From positions 1 through 59,180 of the forward strand of contig JAGHVF010000049.1 in NCBI GenBank assembly GCA_018064425.1: a stretch of 59,180 nucleotides of DNA, read 5' to 3'. This document shows, piece by piece, positions 5,603-48,074 of the stretch; the stretch's first letter is position 1; each line of letters opens with the position of its first letter. The stretch comes from Candidatus Colinaster equi. Lineage in GTDB: Bacteria; Bacillota; Clostridia; Lachnospirales; Lachnospiraceae. Below the pieces are notes generated by a model. The model saw only the letters and a program-made list of their open reading frames with translations, was not told the origin of the DNA and did not search any database. Made by a program: the position numbers and the translations under genes.

Positions 5603-5646
5603 ATATAGCTAAATGAGCAGGGAACTGCTTGGAAATGAGGATTATT

Positions 5647-7323
5647 ATGCAACTTACAGGTTCGGAAATAGTAGTAGAATGTCTCAAGGAACAGGGTGTT
5701 GATACTGTATTCGGATATCCGGGAGGAACAATTCTGAATATTTATGATGCATTATATAAACATCCGGAGATTAACCATGTATTAACAAGTCATGAGCAGG
5801 GCGCGAGTCATGCTGCCGACGGTTATGCTCGCTCTACGGGAAAAGTCGGTGTGTGTATGGCAACATCGGGCCCGGGTGCTACAAATCTTGTGACGGGAAT
5901 AGCGACAGCATATATGGATAGCATTCCAATGGTGGCAATTACTGCCAATGTAACGCTACCGGCTCTCGGAAAAGATTCCTTTCAAGAGGTTGATATTGTC
6001 GGCGTAACAATGCCTGTTACAAAGCATGGCTTTATTGTTAAAGACGTTAAACAGCTTGCAAAGACAATAAGAAGAGCATTTTATATTGCAAAAAGCGGCA
6101 GACCCGGACCGGTAATTGTTGATATTACGAAGGATGTAACGGCAAATTCCTGTGAGTACAAGCCTGCAGAATTAAAAGAAGTTACATATGACAATGAATA
6201 TACCGTTAAGGATATCGATAAAACAATAGAACTCATGCAGGCATCGAAGAAACCGTTTATTTATGTAGGCGGTGGTGCAATCAGTGCCGATGCATCTAAA
6301 GAAGTGGCTGATTTGGCCAGACTTCTGGATGCACCTGTATGTGATACATTAATGGGAAAAGGTGCATATGACGGACGCGATGACAGATATACAGGTATGA
6401 TTGGTATGCATGGTACAAAGGCCAGCGACCTTGGCGTAACAGAGTGTGATTTGCTCATTGCTCTTGGAGCACGTTTCTCGGATCGTGTTATCGGAAATGC
6501 AAAGAAATTCTGTAAGAATGCAAAAATTGTTCATTTTGATATTGACGCTGCCGAGATAGATAAAAATATTAAGACACATGTGTCAGTTATCGGTAACCTT
6601 AAAGATTCGTTAAGAGATGTATTAAGTAAGCTTGAGCCACAGTCTCATCCGGAATGGATGGCTCATATTATGGATTTGAAGAATACATATCCGTTAGATT
6701 ACGACAGAAAGAAACTGACTTGTCCATATGTTATAGAGACTATTGACAAAGTAACAAACGGACAGGCAATTATTACAACAGATGTAGGTCAGCATCAGAT
6801 GTGGGCGGCACAATATTATAAATATTCTAAGCCGAGAACATTTCTTTCAAGCGGCGGACTCGGCACAATGGGTTATGGACTGGGGGCATGTATTGGTGCT
6901 CAGGTTGGTAATCCGGATAAAGTGTGCATTAATATTGCCGGCGACGGTTGCTTTAGAATGAATATGAATGAGCTTGCTACTGCAAGCAGATATAATATTC
7001 CGATAGTGCAGGTGGTTATTAATAATCGCGTTCTTGGAATGGTAAGACAGTGGCAGACATTATTTTACGGTAAGAGATATTCGCAGACAATTCTTGAAGA
7101 TAATGTTGATTTCTGTAAGGTTGCACAGGGACTTGGCTGCGAGGCGATTCTTGTTACAAAACAGGAAGAGGTTGAGCCTGCAATAAGAAAAGCGATAGAA
7201 ATGAAGGCGCCTGTTTTAATCAACGTAATGATTGAAAAGGATGACAGCGTATTCCCTATGGTACCTGCCGGAGCACCTATTTCGGAAGTGTTTGATAAGA
7301 AGGATCTTGATAACAAACAGTAA
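5647..7323 (+). CDS. ilvB: Acetolactate synthase, large (catalytic) subunit, copy 1
   Basis: This ThDP-dependent enzyme condenses pyruvate with pyruvate or 2-oxobutyrate. The protein is 558 residues. HEQGASHAADGYAR holds the catalytic Glu; TSGPGATNLVTG and the ThDP motif GDGCFRMNMNELATA with following Asn residues are intact. ATG 5647 is preferred because GAGG (5637-5640) is 6 bases upstream and gives the family start MQLTGSEIV; in-frame starts at 5629 (TTG) and 5635 have poor sites. The stop overlaps the next start (TAATG). No regulatory subunit follows directly: the likely partner ilvN is 21 kb away beside ilvC. Confidence 0.95.
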   Translation: MQLTGSEIVVECLKEQGVDTVFGYPGGTILNIYDALYKHPEINHVLTSHEQGASHAADGYARSTGKVGVCMATSGPGATNLVTGIATAYMDSIPMVAITANVTLPALGKDSFQEVDIVGVTMPVTKHGFIVKDVKQLAKTIRRAFYIAKSGRPGPVIVDITKDVTANSCEYKPAELKEVTYDNEYTVKDIDKTIELMQASKKPFIYVGGGAISADASKEVADLARLLDAPVCDTLMGKGAYDGRDDRYTGMIGMHGTKASDLGVTECDLLIALGARFSDRVIGNAKKFCKNAKIVHFDIDAAEIDKNIKTHVSVIGNLKDSLRDVLSKLEPQSHPEWMAHIMDLKNTYPLDYDRKKLTCPYVIETIDKVTNGQAIITTDVGQHQMWAAQYYKYSKPRTFLSSGGLGTMGYGLGACIGAQVGNPDKVCINIAGDGCFRMNMNELATASRYNIPIVQVVINNRVLGMVRQWQTLFYGKRYSQTILEDNVDFCKVAQGLGCEAILVTKQEEVEPAIRKAIEMKAPVLINVMIEKDDSVFPMVPAGAPISEVFDKKDLDNKQ

Positions 7324-28717: not shown

Positions 28718-28762
28718 AGGGCTTGTGAGTTGCAGATATGTGACGAATGGAAGGAATATCTA

Positions 28763-29269
28763 ATGAAAAGAAAAGTATTTCAGTTGCTTGTTGAGAACAA
28801 TTCAGGTGTACTTAGCAGAATATCCGGTTTATTTTCAAGAAGAGGATATAATATTGAAAGTATAACAGCAGGTGATACTGCTGACCCCAATATTACGAGA
28901 ATAACGATTGTTGCTACAGGTGATGATGAAGTGCTTGCTCAGATTGAAAAGCAGGTTGCAAAGCTTGTAGATGTGCGTGATATCAGAGAGCTTAAGCCTG
29001 ATGTAAGTGTCTACAGAGAATTGGCATTAATCAAAGTAAGAGTGGAGGCAAAAGACCGACCGGAACTCATTTCTCTTACAGATGTTTTTAGAGCAAATGT
29101 TGTAGATGTTGCAAAAGATGGATTGATTATTGAAATAACGGGTAATCAAGGCAAGATTAATGCATTCCTTAAATTGATTGACGGATATGAAATTCTTGAA
29201 ATTGCACGTACAGGTATAGCCGGACTTAGAAGAGGAACGGATGATATTGTTTATCCGGTAGTGAATTAG
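28763..29269 (+). CDS. ilvN: Acetolactate synthase, small (regulatory) subunit, copy 1
   Basis: This subunit activates the large subunit and confers valine feedback. The 168-residue protein has an N-terminal ACT domain (FQLLVENNSGVLSRISGLFSRRGYNIESI in outline) and a C-terminal domain ending IARTGIAGLRRG. ATG 28763 is chosen because GGAAGGA (28749-28755) is 7 bases upstream; an in-frame TTG at 28730 is before that site. It is followed by ilvC. Its large subunit is probably the ilvB at 5.6-7.3 kb, as a second ilvB-ilvN pair is self-contained. Confidence 0.93.
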   Translation: MKRKVFQLLVENNSGVLSRISGLFSRRGYNIESITAGDTADPNITRITIVATGDDEVLAQIEKQVAKLVDVRDIRELKPDVSVYRELALIKVRVEAKDRPELISLTDVFRANVVDVAKDGLIIEITGNQGKINAFLKLIDGYEILEIARTGIAGLRRGTDDIVYPVVN

Positions 29270-30521: not shown

Positions 30522-30818
30522 ATGACTATTGATGTGAATAAGAATGGTAATGCTACAACTGTTGCGTTGACAGGAAGGCTTGATACTACTACAGCACCGG
30601 AACTCGAGGCAAAGCTTAAGACTGAGATGGATGGATGCACAGAGCTTGTTTTTGATTTTACAGGACTTGAGTATGTATCTTCAGCCGGATTGAGAGTTCT
30701 TCTTGCAGCTCAGAAGACAATGAACAAGCAGGGAAATATGGTTATTAAGAATGTTGATTCTTCAATTATGGAAGTTTTTGAGATAACCGGTTTTGTAGAC
30801 ATTCTCACAATTGAGTAA
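30522..30818 (+). CDS. STAS-domain anti-sigma factor antagonist
   Basis: The 98-residue protein is a single STAS domain of the SpoIIAA/RsbV type. It has LTGRLDTTTAPELEAKL at the N-terminus and the phosphorylation-site region FTGLEYVSSAGLRVLL, where the Ser in SSAG is the expected target of a partner kinase. Such proteins release a sigma factor or another target from an RsbW/SpoIIAB-like kinase when unphosphorylated. An RsbW-like kinase is at 42.7 kb; whether they are partners is inference. It is monocistronic, between two strong terminators, with its own promoter. Confidence 0.92.
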   Translation: MTIDVNKNGNATTVALTGRLDTTTAPELEAKLKTEMDGCTELVFDFTGLEYVSSAGLRVLLAAQKTMNKQGNMVIKNVDSSIMEVFEITGFVDILTIE

Positions 30819-34034: not shown

Positions 34035-35657
34035 ATGAATGGTGCAGATATAATGGTTAAATGCCTTGAAGCGGAAGGCATAAAGGATATATTTGGATAT
34101 CCGGGAGTTGCAATAGCTCCTTTTTACAATAGTATATATGAGTCAAATATCCGAAGCGTTTTGGTTAGAACAGAACAGAGCAGTGCGCATGCTGCCAGTG
34201 GATATGCCAGAGCAAATAATAATGAAAAACCCGGAGTATGTGCCGTAACATCCGGCCCGGGTGCAACTAATCTTATTACGGGTATTGCGACTGCGTTTGC
34301 AGACAGTATTCCGCTTGTTTGTATCACAGGACAAGTTAATTCCGAACTTTTGGGTAGTGATGTTTTTCAGGAAGCTGATATAACAGGTGCATGCGAATCC
34401 TTTGTTAAATACTCATATTTGGTTAAGGATGTTACCGATTTACCCAGAGTATTTAAGGAGGCGTTTCATGTTGCATCAACAGGAAGAAAAGGTCCTGTGT
34501 TAATTGATGTTCCGATTGATGTTCAACAGGCAACAGTGAAGAACTTCAAGTATCCGGAGGGCGTTAATATGCGTACATATAAGCCTGCCAGTAAGGGCAA
34601 CGCCATTCAGATAAAGAAAGTTATTGGTGAATTATCAAAAGCAAAGCGCCCTATAATTTGTGCCGGCGGTGGAGTACTTTTGGGAAAAGGTAAGAAGGAA
34701 CTTTTGGATTTTGCCGAAAAACATAGTATTCCCATTGTCACAACAATGATGGGTATCGGAGTCGTTCCGACCAATCATAATCTCTGTTTTGGAATGGTTG
34801 GCAATAACGGAAAAGCGTATGCTAACAGAGCGATGAATGAAGCTGATTTGATAATTATGGTCGGAGCAAGAGTGGCAGACAGAGCTGTTAGTCAGCCTGA
34901 TCTTATTACAAAAGACAAAGTGCTTATTCATATTGATATTGATACAGCTGAAATTGGCAAAAATGCAGGTCCGACGATTCCGCTTGTAGGAGATGCAAAG
35001 GTGATATTTGCTGATTTACTTGAGATGGAATTGGAAGCAAATTATAGTGAATGGATTGATAAATTAAACGAATACAAGAAGGAGATGGCAAGAGTAAGAA
35101 AACCGAATCCGGAATATGTAGATCCTGCAGAATTTATTAAAACACTCAGTTCAAAAATGGATGATGAAAGTATATACATTGCGGATGTCGGACAGAATCA
35201 AATATGGTCATGCGACAATGTGTGCGTCAGAAACGGTAAATTTATGACAACAGGCGGCATGGGAACAATGGGATATTCTATTCCGGCTGCTATTGGTGCA
35301 AAACTTGGCAGATGTGAAAGACAAGTTGTTGCAGTGTGCGGCGACGGATCCTTTCAGATGAGTATGTGTGAATTGGCTACGGCAAAACAACATAATATAC
35401 CTGTTAAGGTTGTTGTATTGTCTAACGGCTATTTGGGAATGGTTCGTGAATATCAACATTTTACTTACAATGACCAGTATTCGGTTGTTGAACTGAAGGG
35501 CAATCCGGATCTTGAAAAGCTTAGTGCTGCATATGATATCCCGTTTATTCGAGTAACGAAAACAGATGAGATAGAGAATGCAATTGATAAGTTTTTAGCA
35601 TCAGATGAAAGCTATATCATGGAGGCAGTTATTGATCCGATGGATATTGTAAGATAG
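34035..35657 (+). CDS. ilvB: Acetolactate synthase large subunit homologue, copy 2
   Basis: The 540-residue ThDP enzyme is clearly related to, but diverged from, copy 1 at 5.6 kb. The catalytic Glu is in RTEQSSAHAASGYAR, and SGPGATNLITG, the flavin/ThDP central domain and GDGSFQMSMCELATA are intact. It lacks the short C-terminal tail of copy 1. It is followed after 16 bases by a matching small subunit, which argues for a true acetolactate synthase rather than another ThDP carboligase. Two isozymes may differ in feedback control. Co-location with metH is probably in one transcript. Confidence 0.88.
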   Translation: MNGADIMVKCLEAEGIKDIFGYPGVAIAPFYNSIYESNIRSVLVRTEQSSAHAASGYARANNNEKPGVCAVTSGPGATNLITGIATAFADSIPLVCITGQVNSELLGSDVFQEADITGACESFVKYSYLVKDVTDLPRVFKEAFHVASTGRKGPVLIDVPIDVQQATVKNFKYPEGVNMRTYKPASKGNAIQIKKVIGELSKAKRPIICAGGGVLLGKGKKELLDFAEKHSIPIVTTMMGIGVVPTNHNLCFGMVGNNGKAYANRAMNEADLIIMVGARVADRAVSQPDLITKDKVLIHIDIDTAEIGKNAGPTIPLVGDAKVIFADLLEMELEANYSEWIDKLNEYKKEMARVRKPNPEYVDPAEFIKTLSSKMDDESIYIADVGQNQIWSCDNVCVRNGKFMTTGGMGTMGYSIPAAIGAKLGRCERQVVAVCGDGSFQMSMCELATAKQHNIPVKVVVLSNGYLGMVREYQHFTYNDQYSVVELKGNPDLEKLSAAYDIPFIRVTKTDEIENAIDKFLASDESYIMEAVIDPMDIVR

Positions 35658-35673
35658 AGGAGATTAAGACGTA

Positions 35674-36162
35674 ATGAAAAGAATCTATTCAGTGCTTGTA
35701 GAGAACAGATCGGGTGTATTGATGAAGGTTGCCGGATTGTTCTCAAGAAGAAGCTATAATATTGACAGCCTGGCTGTCGGAGAAACGGAGAATAGTGATG
35801 TTTCGTGCATTACTGTTGTAAGCTCGGGAGATAATAGAACACTTGAGCAGATTGAAAAACAGCTAAATAAAAAGTTGGATGTTATCAAAGTAAAAACCTT
35901 TGATGAGATACACAGTGTCAATTTGGAACTTATGCTTGTCAAGGTAAAATATAATCGCGGCAATAGACGTGATATTATGGAAAATTGCGATATATGCGGA
36001 GCAAAAATCGTGGATATGAGCAATAACCAAATGATAATTCAAGTGTGTGATACTCCTGAGAGAACGGCAATGTTTTTAAAGATGCTTAAAGGCATTAGCA
36101 TACTTGAGGTTGCGAGAACAGGTACGTTGGCATTACCAAAATGCATTGAGAGCGATATATAG
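35674..36162 (+). CDS. ilvN: Acetolactate synthase small subunit homologue, copy 2
   Basis: The 162-residue protein has the ACT domain (VLVENRSGVLMKVAGLFSRR in outline, then SYNIDSLAVGETE) and the second domain ending EVARTGTLALPK. It is the natural partner of the large subunit directly upstream. GGAG precedes the start. Its last codons (Ser-Asp-Ile-stop) lie inside a 10-bp tandem repeat, so changes in repeat number would alter the C-terminus. Confidence 0.9.
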   Translation: MKRIYSVLVENRSGVLMKVAGLFSRRSYNIDSLAVGETENSDVSCITVVSSGDNRTLEQIEKQLNKKLDVIKVKTFDEIHSVNLELMLVKVKYNRGNRRDIMENCDICGAKIVDMSNNQMIIQVCDTPERTAMFLKMLKGISILEVARTGTLALPKCIESDI

Positions 36163-36200: not shown

Positions 36201-37274
36201 ATGAATAATAAAGATAAAGAGATTATTAATCAATTCAAAAGAGAGAGAGAAATATATCTTGATATTGAGAAGATTGTATATGAGGCAATATGTGATGAAA
36301 TAGAAAAGAACAAAGTTTTTGTTATGGAAGTATCACATAGAACAAAAAACGTTGATTCGTTAAAAAACAAGGTTATTAAAAAGAGCGGCAAGTATGATGC
36401 TTTGCAGGATATAACCGATTTGTGCGGTATACGAATAATCACATATTTCTCAGACGATGTTGATACTATCGGAAGAATTGTTACGGAATTATTCGATGTT
36501 GATGAATCCAACTCAATTGATAAAAGAGAAGCCATCAACGCAACTCAATTTGGCTATTTGTCATTGCACTATGTTTGCGCATTGCCGATTGGAAAAGGTT
36601 ATTCTTCACAACTTGTCGGCAGAAAGTTTGAGATTCAGATACGAACGGTACTGCAACATACTTGGGCTGAGATAGAACATGATTTGGGATATAAATCGGA
36701 ATTCGGTGTTCCGAGAGAGCTGAGACGTGAGTTTTCCCGAATAGCAGGATTGTTGGAAATAGCGGACGGACAGTTTGTGTCATTAAGAGATAATTTGAAA
36801 AAATACTCAGATAACATCAAAGAGAAAATCAATTCCGATGACGCAAATGATGTATTAATAGATAGAATTTCACTTGAAGAATATATGCATAATAATACCA
36901 ATATGCAACGCTTTCTTAAGAGAATCTCAAGTGAATTGCAGATTGAAGTGGAACATATTGATTCCGAAGCATATATTGAATTATTTGAACTGTTGGAATT
37001 TGAGTCAATTGGGGATATTAGTCATTGCCTTGAAGAAAATGGTGATTTGGCATTCGAAATGATTAAGGAAATGATAGAATCCACGGGACTTGATATTCTG
37101 TCAACGAATGCGGCTTTAAGATATTTGTGCAGAGCATATATTATCAAAAACAGATGGAACAGGGAAAGAATTGCGAAATTTGTAGGTGCGGGAATTACAA
37201 ACAAAGAAAGAATAAATGAGCAAACTGATGTATTGATTGAGACAATGGAGAAATACTATGGCGCAAACAAATGA
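36201..37274 (+). CDS. RelA/SpoT-domain (p)ppGpp synthetase-like protein with long C-terminal extension
   Basis: The 357-residue protein has a RelA/SpoT nucleotidyltransferase domain at about 40-170. DITDLCGIRII (70-80), FGYLSLHYV (117-125) and EIQIRTVLQHTWAEIEHDLGYK in outline (144-165) match active small alarmone synthetases, including the EIQIRT loop. Lengths of about 200-260 are usual for such synthetases; here about 185 further residues, mainly helical and acidic, follow. No HD hydrolase domain is present. Some long relatives are toxic synthetases with a built-in control domain, so that role is possible but unproven. The ribosome site is poor. Its 3' end overlaps the next gene by 17 bases. 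Confidence 0.85.
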   Translation: MNNKDKEIINQFKREREIYLDIEKIVYEAICDEIEKNKVFVMEVSHRTKNVDSLKNKVIKKSGKYDALQDITDLCGIRIITYFSDDVDTIGRIVTELFDVDESNSIDKREAINATQFGYLSLHYVCALPIGKGYSSQLVGRKFEIQIRTVLQHTWAEIEHDLGYKSEFGVPRELRREFSRIAGLLEIADGQFVSLRDNLKKYSDNIKEKINSDDANDVLIDRISLEEYMHNNTNMQRFLKRISSELQIEVEHIDSEAYIELFELLEFESIGDISHCLEENGDLAFEMIKEMIESTGLDILSTNAALRYLCRAYIIKNRWNRERIAKFVGAGITNKERINEQTDVLIETMEKYYGANK

Positions 37275-37746
37275 AATTTTTAGACAAAAAAGTTTAAATA
37301 GAATTTCGTCACCGGAAGAACTTGATGGCTATTTGAAGGTAGTAAATCCCGGAATATGGATTGTTTTGGGAACAATTATTGTGTTATTGATGGGCTTTAT
37401 TGTTGTATGCACAGTTGGTACTGTTGAGGATAAGGATAACGTTGTCGCATTTGTGTCCAATAATGAAGTGACGGTATATCTTAATGATCAGCAAACAGAT
37501 AAACTTACAGAAGATTCTGTACTTAGAATTGAAGGGAACGAGCAAAGTATCACTAAAAGCGAAGGTGTACCGATGTGCATTGATGATAAGTTTGATGAAT
37601 TTAAGACATATTATGTCAAAGCACAAAAGGGTGATTGGGTAACAGAGTATAAGTGTTCGTGTAATAATCTGCAAGATGGAATGTATGATGCGACCGTACT
37701 TTATGAATCTATTAAACCAGTTAATTTACTATTTGAGACAAAGTAG
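37258..37746 (+). CDS. Short HlyD-like adaptor of an NHLM-type exporter
   Basis: The 162-residue protein begins with FRQKSLNRISSPEELDGYLKVVNP in outline (8-31), which matches the N-terminus of NHLM bacteriocin-system secretion (HlyD-family) proteins. One membrane helix (about 33-53) and a beta-rich extracytoplasmic part of about 105 residues follow. The coiled-coil hairpin and lipoyl halves of normal adaptors are missing, so this is a truncated or minimal form. ATG 37258 is chosen because GGAG (37247-37250) is 7 bases upstream; it lies inside the end of the synthetase gene. The next exporter gene starts 6 bases after the stop. Confidence 0.78.
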   Translation: MAQTNEIFRQKSLNRISSPEELDGYLKVVNPGIWIVLGTIIVLLMGFIVVCTVGTVEDKDNVVAFVSNNEVTVYLNDQQTDKLTEDSVLRIEGNEQSITKSEGVPMCIDDKFDEFKTYYVKAQKGDWVTEYKCSCNNLQDGMYDATVLYESIKPVNLLFETK

Positions 37747-37752
37747 GAATAT

Positions 37753-39921
37753 ATGCATATGAAACAACCGGTAGAGAATAAAATTGCAAAGACGCCTGTT
37801 ATTATGCAGATGGAAGCACTTGAATGCGGTGCGGCATGTCTTGCTATGATTTTGGCATATTATGATAAATGGATTCCGCTTGAACAGGTCAGAGTTGATT
37901 GCGGCGTTTCAAGAAACGGTTCCAAAGCAAGCAGTGTAGTTGCTGCAGCAAGGAATTATGGATTGGACAGTAAAGCATACAAACTTGAACCGGAAATTTT
38001 AAGAAAACAAGGGCAATTTCCTTGTATTATTCATTGGAATTTTAATCATTTTGTTGTACTAAAAGGCTTTAAAGGTGATTATGCATATATTAATGACCCG
38101 GCCAGAGGTGATGTAAAAATACATTTCGACGAGTTCGATGAAGCTTTTACGGGAATAGCTATTTTCTTTGAGCCAACTGATAGTTTCTGTCCATCCGGAA
38201 AGAAAAAATCAATGCTTAAGTATGCATTGGCACGCCTAAGCTGTGTTAAATCAGCAGTTGTATTTGTTGCGCTTGCAACATGCATTTCTTCGATTTTGGG
38301 CATATTTACACAAACTTTATCAAAAGTATTTGTAGATAGGATTATAGGACAATCATACAATAAATGGACTGTAGCCTTTTTGGTTATTTTGAGCGGTGCA
38401 TTGCTGATAGAAATTATTCTGGCATGGATTAATGCGGCTTGCAATATGCGAATTAACGGAAAAATTTCAACGGTAGGCAGTAGTACTTTTTTATGGAGAG
38501 TATTACATATGCCTATGGATTTCTTCAGCCAACGTATGACCGGTGATATTCAGATGCGAATGAATACTAATGGTGATATTGCCAATCAAATGGTTAACAT
38601 TTTTGCTCCATTGGGAATAAAGACAATAATGTTGTTTTTTTATCTTGCGGTTATGGTAAAGTATAGTCCGCTTCTTACTGTGGTAGGTTGTTTATCGATA
38701 TTTATTAATCTTTTTGTATCAAGAATAATATCGAATAAACGTATTAATACTACAAGAGTGATGGCGCGTGACAGTGCGAAAATGTCATCCACAACTTTAT
38801 CAGGAATTGACATGATAGAGACAATAAAGGCCAGCGGGGCGGAAAACGGTTTTTTTGCCAAATGGTCCGGATATCAGGCCGGTGTCAATGCTGCGCAGGT
38901 GGAATACAGTAAAATTGATTACCGATGGGGTGTGATTCCGACAATTGTCAGTGCGCTGTCGGATATTATCATTATGTATTTGGGCGCGATTCTTATTATG
39001 AACGGTGAATATACAATTGGTGCATTTGTTGCTTTTCAAGGCTTTTTAGTAAGTTTTTCGGAACCGGCACTTACGTTGATATCGACCGGACAACAAATTC
39101 AGGAATTGCGTACGGATATGGAGCGAATAGAAGATGTAATGCAATATCCGATTGATTATGAAAATGAGGATCCGCTAGATGATTCAAAGGAATATAGCAA
39201 ACTTAAGGGTAATATTTCAATCAAGAATCTTTCTTTTGGATATGCAAAGTTGGAACCGCCGATTATCAAGAATTTCAATCTTGAATTAGCTGCAGGAAAA
39301 AGTGTTGCATTGGTGGGCAGCTCCGGAAGCGGAAAATCTACAATTGCAAAGCTTGTATCGGGATTATATCGTCCGTGGGAAGGAACAATACATTTTGACG
39401 GACAGAGTATTGATGAAATAAATAAAGCGGTATTCAGAGGATCTGTAGCAGTAGTAGATCAGGATATAACACTGTTTGAAGATACGATATCAAATAATAT
39501 TAGAATGTGGGATAAATCAATTGAAGATTTTGAAATAATTCTTGCTGCAAGAGATGCTAAGGTTCATGAGGCTATAAGCAAAAGACCGGGCGGATATAAC
39601 TCTATGATGGCTGAAGGGGGTAAAGACTTTTCAGGCGGTGAGAGACAGCGATTGGAGCTTGCCCGAGTCCTTTCACAGGATCCTACAATTATTATTTTGG
39701 ATGAGGCAACGTCTGCCCTTGATGCCAAAACAGAATTTGAGGTAATTAATGCCATAAAAGATAGAGGAATCACTTGCATTGTTGTTGCTCACAGATTGTC
39801 TACAATCAGATATTGTGATGAGATTATTGTTTTGAAAGACGGTGAGACAATTGAGCGTGGAACACATGATGAGTTGTATACAGCAAATGGATTTTATACA
39901 GAACTTGTAAGTAATGAATAG
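37753..39921 (+). CDS. NHLM-type peptidase/permease/ATPase exporter (C39 family)
   Basis: The 722-residue protein matures and exports leader-bearing peptides. The N-terminal C39 peptidase (about 10-140) keeps its catalytic residues: Gln19, Cys25 in ECGAACLAMIL, His in NHFVVLKG and Asp in INDPARG, so cleavage is expected. A six-helix permease (about 160-440) and an ABC ATPase (about 480-722) follow. The ATPase has Walker A GSSGSGKST, signature FSGGERQRLELA and Walker B IIILDEATSALD. Either ATG 37753 or 37759 is possible. Family assignment to the NHLM peptidase/ATPase group is from the paired neighbour with its typical N-terminus. The cargo is not identified. Confidence 0.9.
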   Translation: MHMKQPVENKIAKTPVIMQMEALECGAACLAMILAYYDKWIPLEQVRVDCGVSRNGSKASSVVAAARNYGLDSKAYKLEPEILRKQGQFPCIIHWNFNHFVVLKGFKGDYAYINDPARGDVKIHFDEFDEAFTGIAIFFEPTDSFCPSGKKKSMLKYALARLSCVKSAVVFVALATCISSILGIFTQTLSKVFVDRIIGQSYNKWTVAFLVILSGALLIEIILAWINAACNMRINGKISTVGSSTFLWRVLHMPMDFFSQRMTGDIQMRMNTNGDIANQMVNIFAPLGIKTIMLFFYLAVMVKYSPLLTVVGCLSIFINLFVSRIISNKRINTTRVMARDSAKMSSTTLSGIDMIETIKASGAENGFFAKWSGYQAGVNAAQVEYSKIDYRWGVIPTIVSALSDIIIMYLGAILIMNGEYTIGAFVAFQGFLVSFSEPALTLISTGQQIQELRTDMERIEDVMQYPIDYENEDPLDDSKEYSKLKGNISIKNLSFGYAKLEPPIIKNFNLELAAGKSVALVGSSGSGKSTIAKLVSGLYRPWEGTIHFDGQSIDEINKAVFRGSVAVVDQDITLFEDTISNNIRMWDKSIEDFEIILAARDAKVHEAISKRPGGYNSMMAEGGKDFSGGERQRLELARVLSQDPTIIILDEATSALDAKTEFEVINAIKDRGITCIVVAHRLSTIRYCDEIIVLKDGETIERGTHDELYTANGFYTELVSNE

Positions 39922-39933
39922 GTGGATTGTGTT

Positions 39934-42126
39934 ATGGGATGGTTTGATTCGCAGATTCGAGAGAAAAATGAATACGATGATAAGGTATTTTCCGAAGCAA
40001 TGGCCAAAATGGCAAGTGCTGTTTTAGGCAACTCTGATTATATTCGGTATATGGATGACGATGTTTGTTCTCAAAAGGTAATTGGCAAGTTATTGCGTTA
40101 TTATCATATTAATCCGGTTCCGATTCCCGATTATATTGAGGATAATGGTGAGAAACTTGAATATGTCATGAGAATTTGCGGAGTAATGTATCGTACCATC
40201 AAGCTTACGCCGGGATTTTCTTCAAATTCAATGGGACCGATTTTAGCAAAAAGAAGTGATAATGGTTCAGTAGTTGCATTGATACCGTCTTTTGGCGGAA
40301 AATATACATTCTTAGATAATGTTACAGGTGAAACAGTTCGTTTAGACAAGAAAAATGAAGAATTGTTTCTTGACGAGGCGATTTGTTTTTACAAACCGTT
40401 TCCGACGAAGGCTCTTACAAAAATTGATTTGGTAAAATACATTTTTAGTAATCTTGATATATCAGATTGCTTGTATCTTGGATTTATTATGCTTGTTTCA
40501 ACAGCATTGGGGTTTTTATCTCCGATTGCTTCACGTGCACTATTTGCAATGTTATCAAATCAAACAGCAAATTACATGTCAATTACTTCGTTGATAATCT
40601 TTATGACATGTACAATGTTGTCTTTGCAAATGATCGGTGTAGTTAAAATGATGATGTTTAACAGAATTCAGGCAAAGATTAGTGTGCCGGTGGAAGCGGC
40701 GTCAATGATGAGATTGCTGTCTTTACCGGTTTCGTTTCACAGAAAGTTTAGCTCGGGCGAGTTAGCATCCTATAATTCTTATATTTGTTCGCTTTGCTCA
40801 ATGATAAGCAACAGTGTTTTGAGTATTGGATTAACATCGATTTTTTCATTGGCATATATCGGACAGATTTTTGCATTTGCTCCCGGATTGGTGATTCCGT
40901 CATTATGTATTATTGCTGCAAATGTTGTTTTTACACTTATATCCGTATTTGCGAGTATGCGTATCAACAAAGAGCGTATGATGCTCCAATCTAAGGAAAA
41001 CGGAATGACATATGCTTTGCTTAACGGTATTCAGAAGATTAAACTGGCCGGAGCACAAAAACGAGCTTTTGCAAGATGGGCCGATTTGTTTACTCAAATT
41101 ACAAAGGTAAATTATGACCCGCCGATAATAGTAAAATACAGTTCGGTTTTTTCACTTGCCATTTCAGCAGTCGGAACTCTTGTGTTGTATTATTGTACGA
41201 TTATTAGCGGCGTAAATGTAGCGGATTACTATGCTTTTACTATGTCGTATTCAATGCTTGCAGGAGCATTTATGTCATTAATAGGTATTGCGGGAACATT
41301 GGCACAGTTCAAACCGGTACTTGATATTGTAAAGCCGCTTTTAGATGCGGTTCCGGAGATGACGGAAGAAAAACAGATTGTAAATAGGGTGTCCGGTGAA
41401 ATTGAAGTTAATCATATATCGTTCAAATATGATGAAGATAGTCCCAATATTATTGATGATTTATCGATAAAAATTGCTGCGGGTGAGTATGTGGCAATTG
41501 TTGGCGAAACCGGATGCGGAAAATCAACGCTGTTAAGAATATTGCTTGGATTTGAGAAACCTCAAAAGGGTACGGTTTTCTATGACAACTATGATTTGAA
41601 TAGTATTGATATGAGATCGCTACGAAGAAAGATGGGAATTGTTTTGCAAAACAGCGCTCTTTTTATGGGAGACATTTTTTCAAATATTGCAATATCCAAT
41701 CCCAGTTTGACGTTGGATGAGGCATGGGAAGCAGCAAAAGTTGCAGGTATTGATGAAGATATTCATAAGATGCCGATGGGAATGAATACAATGATTAGTG
41801 AAGGCAACGGCGGAATTAGCGGAGGTCAGAAACAGAGGTTGATGATTGCCAGAGCAGTTGCCGGCAAGCCTAAAATTGTAATGTTTGATGAAGCAACATC
41901 TGCACTTGATAATGTAACGCAAAGGAAGATATCCGATGCAATGGATGATATGAAGTGTACACGTGTTGTAATTGCGCATAGACTTTCAACAATTAAGAAT
42001 TGTGATAAAATTATTGTACTAAAAGAGGGCAGAATATGCGAACAAGGTAACTATTCGGAGTTAATCGCGCTTGACGGCTATTTTGCTGATTTAGTCAAAC
42101 ATCAGAGATTGGAATCCGGAGCATAA
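39934..42126 (+). CDS. NHLM-type exporter ATPase/permease without peptidase
   Basis: This is the second exporter of the pair, 730 residues. It starts MGWFDSQIREKNEYDDKVF from ATG 39934 (AGGTGG 8 bases upstream; a GTG at 39922 is in frame), a typical N-terminus for NHLM-system ATP-binding proteins. An N-terminal domain of about 160 residues has no peptidase residues. Membrane helices (about 170-460) and an ABC ATPase follow, with Walker A GETGCGKST, signature ISGGQKQRLMIA and Walker B IVMFDEATSALD. It probably forms a heterodimer with the upstream exporter. The stop is followed after 14 bases by the MobA-like gene. Confidence 0.88.
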   Translation: MGWFDSQIREKNEYDDKVFSEAMAKMASAVLGNSDYIRYMDDDVCSQKVIGKLLRYYHINPVPIPDYIEDNGEKLEYVMRICGVMYRTIKLTPGFSSNSMGPILAKRSDNGSVVALIPSFGGKYTFLDNVTGETVRLDKKNEELFLDEAICFYKPFPTKALTKIDLVKYIFSNLDISDCLYLGFIMLVSTALGFLSPIASRALFAMLSNQTANYMSITSLIIFMTCTMLSLQMIGVVKMMMFNRIQAKISVPVEAASMMRLLSLPVSFHRKFSSGELASYNSYICSLCSMISNSVLSIGLTSIFSLAYIGQIFAFAPGLVIPSLCIIAANVVFTLISVFASMRINKERMMLQSKENGMTYALLNGIQKIKLAGAQKRAFARWADLFTQITKVNYDPPIIVKYSSVFSLAISAVGTLVLYYCTIISGVNVADYYAFTMSYSMLAGAFMSLIGIAGTLAQFKPVLDIVKPLLDAVPEMTEEKQIVNRVSGEIEVNHISFKYDEDSPNIIDDLSIKIAAGEYVAIVGETGCGKSTLLRILLGFEKPQKGTVFYDNYDLNSIDMRSLRRKMGIVLQNSALFMGDIFSNIAISNPSLTLDEAWEAAKVAGIDEDIHKMPMGMNTMISEGNGGISGGQKQRLMIARAVAGKPKIVMFDEATSALDNVTQRKISDAMDDMKCTRVVIAHRLSTIKNCDKIIVLKEGRICEQGNYSELIALDGYFADLVKHQRLESGA

Positions 42127-42140
42127 TATGTGCATAAAGA

Positions 42141-42731
42141 ATGATGAAAAACAGTAAGGGATATTTAATTGGTATAGCGATTTTGGCAGGTGGAAAGTCT
42201 ACCAGAATGGGGCAAAACAAAACATTGTTACTTACCGACAAGGGTGTCACTTTTTTAGACAGAATGATGGATGAATTTGCAGGATTTGAATACAAATATC
42301 TTTCTTCAAATGATTGTCGGGAAGATATATGCAAAGGGTATAGTGTAATAAGAGACTGCTATAAAGATATAGGACCAATGGGCGGAATTTTTTCTGTTTT
42401 AAAACAGACTGAGTGCGATGCGGTGTTGGTGGCGGCCGCGGATATGCCGTTATATAATTCGGATGAAGCCCTGAAAATTATAGATATTTACAATGGTGAA
42501 GATATTTTGGCGGCTAAGCACTCTGATGGAAAATATCAAATGTTGGCATCTATTTATTCCAAAGGGTGCATTGAACGAATGGAAGAAATGATTACCGCCG
42601 GCGATTATAAGTTAATAAGGCTTATGGATTGCGTGTATTCGAAAGATTTTTTAATAACAAATGAGATAGCATATACCAATATCAACACTATGGCAGACTA
42701 CAGACAATTTATGTGTGAAAGGGAGAGTTAA
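42141..42731 (+). CDS. MobA-like nucleotidyltransferase
   Basis: The 196-residue protein has the NTP-transferase signature AILAGGKSTRMGQNKTLL near its N-terminus, a PMGGIFSVL block and the metal-binding AADMPLY. This fits molybdenum cofactor guanylyltransferase (MobA) and related enzymes. No other molybdopterin genes or molybdoenzymes are in the window, although an FdhD-like gene is at 28 kb. The ribosome site before ATG 42141 is weak, and a 9-codon out-of-frame ORF with a better site overlaps it. It is placed between the exporter and the RsbW-like gene. Confidence 0.78.
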   Translation: MMKNSKGYLIGIAILAGGKSTRMGQNKTLLLTDKGVTFLDRMMDEFAGFEYKYLSSNDCREDICKGYSVIRDCYKDIGPMGGIFSVLKQTECDAVLVAAADMPLYNSDEALKIIDIYNGEDILAAKHSDGKYQMLASIYSKGCIERMEEMITAGDYKLIRLMDCVYSKDFLITNEIAYTNINTMADYRQFMCERES

Positions 42732-42733
42732 TA

Positions 42734-43132
42734 ATGAGATTTGATGCAAAGGTTGAAGAACTTGATAATGTGATTGCATATATTGAAGGCGAACTTGAGA
42801 AGTTGAATGCTCCGACAAAGGTTATTATGCAAATGGCAGTTGCGGTAGAAGAAATATTTGTTAACATTGCACATTATGCATATGCTGAAGATAATATTGG
42901 AGGACCTGCCGAAGTAAGTGTGATTTTACACGATAATATGATTGATGTCATATTCGAAGATGAAGGTGTAGAATTCGATCCTTTAGCTAAAGCCGACCCG
43001 GATGTTTCACTTGAAGCTGATGACAGACAGATAGGCGGATTGGGCATATTTATGGTAAAGAAGAGTATGGATAGCGTGGAATATCGCAGAGATGGCGGAA
43101 AGAATATTTTAACAATAAAGAAGAGCTGGTAA
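42734..43132 (+). CDS. RsbW/SpoIIAB-like serine kinase, anti-sigma factor
   Basis: The 132-residue protein is a GHKL-type ATP-binding domain. The N box is AVEEIFVNIAHYAY (about 37-50), G1 is FEDEGVEFDP and G2 is GGLGIFMVKKSMD. Such proteins bind a sigma factor or other target and phosphorylate a STAS antagonist. The STAS protein at 30.5 kb is a candidate partner. No sigma factor or PP2C phosphatase is in the window, so the regulated target is unknown. The start lies 2 bases after the MobA-like stop with a good GGGAGAG site. Confidence 0.88.
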   Translation: MRFDAKVEELDNVIAYIEGELEKLNAPTKVIMQMAVAVEEIFVNIAHYAYAEDNIGGPAEVSVILHDNMIDVIFEDEGVEFDPLAKADPDVSLEADDRQIGGLGIFMVKKSMDSVEYRRDGGKNILTIKKSW

Positions 43133-47666: not shown

Positions 47667-48074
47667 ATGGCAATTAAGACAGATACCGAAGTTATTATCG
47701 GAGGAAAAGTATTCACACTGTGCGGATATGAGAGTGAAGAGTATTTGCAGAGAATAGCTTCGTATATTAATAGCAAGCTTGCAGAGTACAGTCATGTAGA
47801 AGGCTTTAGAAGAGCCAATATGGAGATGCAGAATGTTCTGATGCAGATAAATATCGCAGACGATTATTTTAAAGCAAAGAATCAGATATCTGCGATGGAA
47901 GAAGATTTGGCGACTAAAGAAAAAGAACTGTACGATTTGAAGCATGAACTTGTTAATAATCAGATGAAGATGGAAAATCTTGATAAGAAGCTTAAGAGCC
48001 TGAAAGATGATCTTAATGACAGAGAAAAGAAGATTATCGAGTTGGAAGCAGAGAATAAGAATTTAAAGAAATAG
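47667..48074 (+). CDS. zapA: Cell division protein ZapA with extended coiled coil
   Basis: ZapA bundles FtsZ filaments at the division site. The 135-residue protein has the N-terminal ZapA domain (VIIGGKVFTLCGYESEEYLQRIASYIN in outline, about 9-37) and a long C-terminal coiled coil (about 70-135) rich in Lys, Glu and Leu heptads. It is longer than the 85-110 residues common in Firmicutes. ATG 47667 is preferred over an in-frame GTG at 47658, with GGTGGAAAG upstream. It follows ruvB, a usual clostridial order. Confidence 0.88.
   Translation: MAIKTDTEVIIGGKVFTLCGYESEEYLQRIASYINSKLAEYSHVEGFRRANMEMQNVLMQINIADDYFKAKNQISAMEEDLATKEKELYDLKHELVNNQMKMENLDKKLKSLKDDLNDREKKIIELEAENKNLKK

Follow-up and report, generated by a model that had tools for sequence, protein, structure and literature searches.

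A LahT-like exporter of Candidatus Colinaster equi and its probable dispersed, partly promoter-linked double-glycine cargo

The 59,180-nucleotide contig JAGHVF010000049.1 (assembly GCA_018064425.1) of Candidatus Colinaster equi, a member of the Lachnospiraceae, hereafter called the window, encodes an export system composed of a peptidase-containing ABC transporter (ABC1), a peptidase-less ABC transporter (ABC2) and a short HlyD-like partner. We conclude that this trio is probably a general exporter for proteins with double-glycine (GG) leaders, whose cargo is dispersed and encoded in trans, many of the cargo genes being under a promoter of the extracytoplasmic function (ECF) type, and that the RelA-like and MobA-like genes standing around it are probably chance neighbours. 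This reading builds on observed gene content, homology, phyletic co-occurrence and a common promoter motif, from which we infer that the cargo proteins are cleaved and exported, which sigma factor is involved and that partner switching exerts control. Throughout, G-codes denote genomes, C-codes contigs and L-codes loci cut from relatives or from the window's own genome (G000, a draft of 2.33 Mb, 84% complete, in which the window is contig C58); the genus set comprises 20 genomes. The exporter genes are the following.

37258 to 37746, + strand: short HlyD-like exporter partner, 162 aa from the ATG at 37258, assigned by clustering with HlyD-like open reading frames (ORFs) of relatives
37753 to 39921, + strand: ABC1, LahT-like C39 peptidase/permease/ATPase (TIGR03796, 891.7 bits; 6MPZ, 243 bits)
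39922 to 42126, + strand: ABC2, peptidase-less permease/ATPase partner, with a GTG start in the ORF list (TIGR03797, 664.5 bits)

Judged by sequence, the trio belongs to a known kind of exporter, though two of the three proteins miss curated cut-offs. ABC1 carries PF03412, PF00664 and PF00005 (Pfam) and exceeds the TIGR03796 equivalog cut-off of 853.3 bits, which places it among NHLM exporters. ABC2 (PF00664 at 28.5 bits, cut-off 28, and PF00005) stays under the TIGR03797 cut-off of 709.4 bits, a value passed by 16 of 397 family genomes, and the HlyD-like protein reaches 15.0 bits against a TIGR03794 cut-off of 156.2 bits and has no match at E 0.001 among Pfam and TIGR profiles. The cassette of the original prediction is confirmed, ABC1 alone of its three exporter proteins exceeding an NHLM cut-off. 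The likely HlyD-like start overlaps the end of the preceding RelA-like gene by 17 nt. Among 54 exporter loci of relatives, for which ORFs were called with a simple script and gene families counted by custom profiles, an ABC2-like ORF above 300 bits is present at 52, and HlyD-like ORFs at 38 cluster with that of the window, one of them being a true TIGR03794 member (L045, 283.9 bits); 19 of the 39 members of this cluster, the window's included, measure 129–173 aa, and the short form is therefore common. The N-terminal region of ABC2, considered as a degenerate C39-like domain, showed no similarity in hhalign. A scan of genome contigs gave two distant Trabulsiella matches only and was not used.

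The C39 peptidase appears intact, as had been predicted: Q19, C25, H99 and D115, which we take to be the catalytic Gln, Cys, His and Asp residues, do not vary among 14 aligned sequences, that of the window and those of 13 relatives. In the PDB, a single sequence matches the N-terminal 150 residues of ABC1 at 1e-30 or better, namely 6MPZ (LahT150), aligned over 141 aa with the same four residues in common. LahT, an AMS/PCAT protein of Lachnospiraceae C6A11, lies in a lanthipeptide cluster with nine precursors, whereas the window exporter has no precursor in the window and a putative cargo that is dispersed and partly carries LysM or zinc-ribbon-like cores. According to the portion of the LahT study drawn on here (PMC6363468), LahT150 cleaves off leaders of the Nif11, nitrile-hydratase-type and short GG kinds and accepts very diverse leaders, the last 13 leader residues are enough, and the protease packs around hydrophobic leader residues at -4, -7 and -12. 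We propose that the C39 domain of ABC1 would cut leaders after GG and that the ABC1/ABC2 pair would export the mature protein. Within the consulted part of Haft 2010 (PMC2887384), the likeness to the NHLM trio TIGR03794/03796/03797 extends to the ABC1 score and to the gene order HlyD-ABC1-ABC2, and the differences lie in the sub-cut-off ABC2 and short HlyD and in a presumed cargo with short leaders and partly folded-domain-like cores. The conclusion of that paper already describes precursors distant from export genes, in the form of dispersed NHLP/Nif11 precursors, so that an arrangement in trans is not in itself new.

A regular expression which was positive at 23 of 57 relative loci, and which gave 1 match in 928 kb of reversed sequence, detected no GG-leader ORF in the window; this agrees with the earlier statement that no precursor is visible there and does not extend to modification enzymes. 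The original prediction had further named a precursor family beside orthologous cassettes as evidence that would speak against it, and Nif11-like ORFs do occur at 12 of the 54 exporter loci (radical-SAM-like genes likewise at 12). Its suggestion that the cargo is encoded elsewhere, for which it proposed a genome-wide search, is supported by four GG-leader genes on three other contigs of G000.

C20:42513-42770: GG leader with a CPIC...CPQC (two CPxC) protein
C21:1841-2113: GG leader with a LysM protein (LysM, 62 bits)
C40:4397-4603 and C40:4650-4844: tandem Cys-rich pair (PF04604, 22.1 and 23.5 bits, cut-off 21.7; TIGR01847, 15.9 and 16.3, cut-off 15.7)

These genes were collected with the aid of two leader models, A1, built from 18 precursors mostly beside relatives' exporters and read at E up to 1, and A2, a leader-only model holding no genus sequences, for which frames below 150 aa with a match reaching the GG were counted. 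A1 gave 17 matches in G003 and 3 in G000, the C40 pair among the latter; A2 gave 15 in G003, 2 in G000, 1 in G018 and none in the other 17 congeners. About 13 of the 15 A2 matches in G003 are cargo-like, with the match on C104 falling on a gene called as a hydrolase-like fragment (L162) and that on C122 being a protein with the LFDYQ motif treated below (L203). The four G000 leaders carry V/I at -4, L at -7 and L/F at -12, hydrophobic as at the positions which pack into LahT, and these positions are hydrophobic or small in 82 of 82 model-selected leaders, a selection that leans that way by construction. The LysM protein scores 14.3 against TIGR01847 (cut-off 15.7), and the C20 protein has no bacteriocin-leader match up to E 0.1, its only match to a family of ribosomally synthesized and post-translationally modified peptides (RiPPs) being CPAC at 13.4 against 60. 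No Nif11 precursor over the TIGR03798 cut-off was found in G000 (best 13.3 against 32.3, within a long frame; the genome-wide search covered Nif11 and not NHLP, TIGR03793), and in G003 this cut-off is passed, at 41.7 bits, on a contig other than that of the exporter. ABC1 is the only C39 peptidase match in G000, and within the genus set C39 matches are confined to G000, G003 and G012, the G012 locus (L205, on C76) being unlike the window exporter by eye. The neighbours at L205 look Bacteroidetes-like by eye, a possible contamination of the G012 draft. Taken together, the likely cargo of the ABC1 exporter appears to be encoded in trans and dispersed.

Similar results were obtained across the family, where 27 of 30 exporter-bearing genomes contain leader-model matches, against 1 of 30 others (Fisher 2e-12), a comparison weakened by A2 having been built from 18 exporter-bearing genomes of which 17 are within the tested 30, and in which the others are genomes with no TIGR03797 match at 1e-110 that may hold other exporter kinds. 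With the 17 model-source genomes removed and a genome whose sole match lies in a 281-aa frame (G235) scored negative, the ratio is 9 of 13 to 1 of 30 (p 1e-5). Of 133 matches in exporter-bearing genomes, a count which leaves out the G235 row and two G174 rows, 29 lie within 20 kb of an exporter and 104 farther away or on other contigs; 32 of these remote matches belong to one genome, G325.

The cores of the presumed cargo are varied. Among 82 GG-leader proteins from the fetched loci, 24 have at least two CxxC motifs and 13 have one. CxxC is present in 19 of the 20 GG-leader proteins read in G325 (L206-L209), most of them two-CxxC and zinc-ribbon-like with an arrangement like CPKCGS...C..CGH.W, and one paralogue exceeds the Zn_ribbon_TFIIS cut-off (22.5 against 21). 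The C20 core of G000, which also has two CxxC, stays under the cut-off of all zinc-ribbon models (Zn_ribbon_3, 19.9 against 27). One G031 protein passes the Nif11 cut-offs, and many cores in G154 and G153 are very short. The two-CxxC cores may bind zinc. Zinc-ribbon folds are normally cytoplasmic, and their occurrence under a GG leader is for this reason unusual. The earlier suggestion of an exporter for a different class of peptide was partly right, holding for those candidate cargo proteins with LysM or zinc-ribbon-like cores. As far as the abstract portion of PMC4997328 goes, the small secreted GG-motif proteins of Synechococcus elongatus are alike in size, in the GG secretion motif and in a role beyond antibiosis (biofilm); they belong to another phylum (cyanobacteria), and an ECF-type promoter and zinc-ribbon cores are not mentioned in that portion.

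Many of the candidate cargo genes have a promoter element in common. Of 18 GG genes (4 of G000 and 14 of G003, chosen by hand, the G003 matches on C139, C104 and C122 not among them), 15 have TCGTATA in the 180 nt before them, as do 3 of 83 control genes from the same loci (Fisher 2e-12); genes shorter than 100 aa, running off a contig end or preceded by a gap of less than 60 nt were not used as controls. It ranks first of all 7-mers (Bonferroni 3e-8), a result weakened by the element having first been noticed by eye in these same two genomes. Conservation outside this anchor extends to a TGTnGCC-like -35 and an A-tract, the fitted spacer being 12–16 nt long and usually 15. This arrangement resembles ECF promoters such as those of Bacillus subtilis SigW. 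A matrix trained on the 15 sites found sites upstream of 10 of 48 GG genes from eight further genomes and of 1 of 134 other genes of such genomes (p 7e-6; G325 left out), and a GG gene of G018 outside the training set has a matrix site 56 nt before it. Exact TCGTATA was present at 5 of 12 GG genes in G380, 5 of 11 in G154, 3 of 11 in G153, 1 of 4 in G399 and 1 of 2 in G264 (15 of 40 together), the tandem paralogues of G154 and G153 not being independent in this and in the matrix count. The window itself has four TCGTATA sites, at 47760 and 50470 on the + strand and at 36428 and 53765 on the - strand. We therefore propose, on the strength of this motif, that many cargo genes in the genus and in some other genera would be transcribed from a promoter made of TGTnGCC, 12–16 nt (usually 15) and TCGTATA.

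Two further G003 genes have a cargo-type promoter, L158:3-1238, a HAMP sensor fragment cut by the contig end (score 39.5), and L163:3830-5632, of the MATE type (19.0); the regulon may therefore include a sensor and a second transporter. By Pfam the former has HAMP and a weak sensor match only and the latter MatE only, its RsbW-like part resting on a custom profile.

The same element could instead be the extended -10 of a housekeeping sigma factor used by accessory genes, with no ECF regulon at all, as many sites read TCGTATAAT or TCGTATATAAT and so contain a good housekeeping -10, and as the largest cargo set, that of G325, lacks TCGTATA. A housekeeping -10, however, does not sit well with its presence at so few of the other genes in the same loci, with a GC-containing -35 and an A-tract conserved at a near-fixed distance, or with the single control gene passing the matrix in other genera, and we regard this alternative as unlikely.

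A candidate for the sigma factor reading these promoters is encoded in the window genome at G000:C68. The model A5, made from eight ECF factors that lie close to exporters or next to LFDYQ[KR]F genes, reaches 246 bits in G018 and 217 in G003 (both within the model) and 198 in G000 (outside it), the next scores being 126 and 115 and all others at most 87; G000, G003 and G018 are also the three congeners with promoter-linked GG genes. The ECF factor at G000:C68 would probably read the TCGTATA promoters, and the RsbW/STAS module often found near such exporters may control it. The following small proteins accompany several of these factors.

LFDYQ[KR]F-like proteins, 62-96 aa: L257:8504-8692, L260:2796-2987, L099:6589-6792, L129:15631-15831, L074:5026-5316 and L211:913-1104

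Most of them have a GG or AAG-like site and mostly lie near ECF sigma genes. The LFDYQ[KR]F gene near the sigma factor has a promoter site 50–59 nt upstream in L099, L129 and G003; that of G018 has no site scoring over 11, and no small gene of this type was seen in the stretch read near the G000 factor. The one LFDYQ[KR]F protein examined has no Pfam match. The gene beside the G003 sigma factor, considered as a SpoIIE phosphatase, matched MCP in Pfam.

Several results weigh against the dispersed, promoter-linked cargo proposed here. In G325, which has the most leader matches, TCGTATA is found within 170 nt at none of 20 GG genes, five of which pass the matrix at 13, and the element is likewise absent from 4 GG genes in G031, 3 in G228 and 1 in G267. 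It is also missing at one further GG gene (L161) and at two genes standing second in tandem; no exact TCGTATA and no matrix site precede the window exporter; and the G000 ECF gene has a weak upstream site only (11.7, TCGTATG). On the side of the leaders, A2 misses the C40 pair, 3 of the 30 exporter-bearing genomes have no leader match, and one of the 30 others has two. Leader-like ORFs were recognised by A1 in G005 and G015, yet these genomes have no C39 match, and the incompleteness of the G000 draft means that another exporter could be missing. As a separate observation, many upstream regions in G325 are near-identical without TCGTATA, as if the set had greatly expanded in this genome under a promoter region of another kind.

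The cassette could instead be a relic or recently acquired exporter without native cargo, the GG-leader ORFs then being unrelated small proteins with a chance LSDEELxxVxGG motif. This would suit the window without a GG-leader ORF, the leader-like ORFs in two congeners without C39, and the exporter match being limited to 2 of the 20 genus genomes (G000 and G003) and apparently inserted into a neighbourhood that is exporter-free in a congener. Such a view nonetheless appears improbable, since the catalytic residues are intact, GG-leader genes track exporters across the family, GG genes of the genus and of five genomes outside it have the promoter in common, and chance GG-leader ORFs are as rare as the reversed sequence indicates.

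The exporter had been described as part of a six-gene unit tied to alarmone synthesis and partner switching, with the following further genes. The STAS gene, encoded upstream, was absent from that description.

36201 to 37274, + strand: RelA/SpoT-domain protein, 357 aa, probable small alarmone synthetase (PF04607, 84.2 bits)
42141 to 42731, + strand: MobA-like nucleotidyltransferase, 196 aa (PF12804, NTP_transf_3, 89.5 bits)
42734 to 43132, + strand: RsbW-like anti-sigma kinase, 132 aa (PF13581, HATPase_c_2, 84.0 bits)
30522 to 30818, + strand: STAS anti-anti-sigma protein, 98 aa, likely RsbW partner (PF01740, 60.8 bits; TIGR00377, 74.8 bits, cut-off 53.45)

All six ORFs are present as an unbroken + strand run; its ends, however, lie elsewhere, with ilvN stopping 38 nt upstream and ruvA beginning 4 nt downstream. 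The order did not prove to be conserved, and the link to an alarmone is not supported, as RelA-like and MobA-like genes each adjoin 0 of the 54 other exporter loci. The RelA-like protein has the RelA_SpoT domain well above the PF04607 cut-off of 27 and stays under the GTPPhKinYjbM equivalog (71 bits, cut-off 320); its one ortholog-like match (46%) among the 19 congeners is in G018, a genome without an exporter match, on a contig other than L114. Considered as a defence-type synthetase, it gave a candidate PDC-S33 at 57.5 bits as its best PADLOC match. The MobA-like protein stays under the MobA equivalog cut-offs (best 94.8 against 164 bits), and no congener match of comparable score was found, the best being 62.9 bits. 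The RelA-like gene, which falls outside the conserved exporter, and the MobA-like gene are probably both incidental neighbours.

The congeners provide the context for this arrangement. In G003 the exporter lies downstream of groEL, with STAS and RsbW directly after ABC2. In G018 (60% complete), contig L114 reads leuD-leuC-LysR-lyxose isomerase-RsbW-STAS-ruvA-ilvC-ilvN...ilvB-metH and has no exporter, and RsbW and STAS therefore look resident in this neighbourhood; from the comparison of gene order, the block RelA-HlyD-ABC1-ABC2-MobA looks inserted between ilvN and RsbW. Two acetolactate synthase large/small-subunit-like sets were noted in the window (5629-7323, 28730-29269 and 34035-36162), the second pair lying immediately before the RelA-like gene and the exporter; the small subunit at 35674-36162 was assigned by Pfam and the remaining subunits by eye.

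The window RsbW is 59% identical to the G018 homologue, which adjoins STAS and ruvA, and stays under the RsbW equivalog cut-offs (best 47.7 against 145 bits); the SSAGLR motif of STAS is invariant in 7 aligned sequences. Together the two genes are probably a partner-switch module resident in the window neighbourhood. RsbW homologues are present in 49 of 61 genomes searched. Leaving G000 aside, 13 of 42 exporter-bearing genomes have such a homologue within 15 kb of an ABC2 gene, where about 0.97 would be expected by random placement (0 of 1,000,000 simulations exceeded 7, under a null that ignores accessory-gene clustering). Partner switching does associate with exporters across the family. The 54 exporter loci include 13 with STAS and 9 with RsbW, that is 15 with either and 39 with neither. 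Sigma factors at 13 loci are an upper count, because the profile also caught proteins of other build (e.g. 254 and 372 aa), and a PP2C count of 12 loci was discarded as unreliable, because the custom profile also picks up HAMP/Cache sensors. The partner-switch connection originally drawn from adjacency is hence retained for the family, whereas locally RsbW and STAS stand side by side without an exporter in G018.

A six-gene operon under alarmone and partner-switch control, with RelA-like signalling and RsbW acting directly on the exporter, would fit the tight spacing with its RelA/HlyD overlap, the RsbW homologues near exporters in other genomes and the G003 gene order, but is improbable given the absence of RelA-like and MobA-like genes from all other exporter loci and the exporter-free RsbW and STAS of G018.

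The window resembles RsbV/RsbW/SpoIIE modules in having STAS and HATPase genes whose motifs are conserved, and SpoIIE domains occur beside homologues in L120 (G006) and L131 (G000); different are the sub-cut-off window RsbW and a suggested sigma factor that would be of the ECF type and encoded on another contig. Two very long frames of G000, nonribosomal peptide synthetase-like by eye, were seen beside related genes: L131:23-9506 (C21) next to a STAS gene and the SpoIIE protein L131:7225-9201, whose HATPase region is just under the Pfam cut-off, and L111:110-7947 (C71) next to a MATE-like protein whose tail is RsbW-like by custom profile.

Overall, these results suggest a model in which the LahT-like exporter of the window serves cargo encoded elsewhere in G000, comprising the LysM protein, the two-CPxC zinc-ribbon-like protein and the tandem Cys-rich pair. 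A wider version, which we consider possible and rather doubtful, would make such exporters a family-wide secretion route for a dispersed regulon of GG proteins with folded cores (zinc ribbons, LysM), read in several genera by one ECF sigma factor through TCGTATA and placed under a partner switch, with the LFDYQ[KR]F protein possibly reporting export back to the sigma factor. FlgM of flagella, which reports export activity, is a distant parallel for the latter. In the open-access literature, as covered by titles and abstract openings, no prior report was found of zinc-ribbon or LysM double-glycine cargo or of its ECF control, nor of partner switching with NHLM/RiPP exporters. New here is that one can put names to the likely cargo, that its genes are dispersed and include some for folded-domain-like proteins, and that in part of the family they appear to form one promoter-defined set.

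Exporter cassettes without a precursor are easily left unexplained, and a leader model together with a partly common promoter points to their missing cargo genome-wide. If the model holds, small secreted proteins that are so far unannotated, a large group with many zinc-ribbon-like members, would become a defined secretome served by one exporter and by a probable sigma factor, in which the zinc-ribbon cargo could serve metal binding, signalling or competition.

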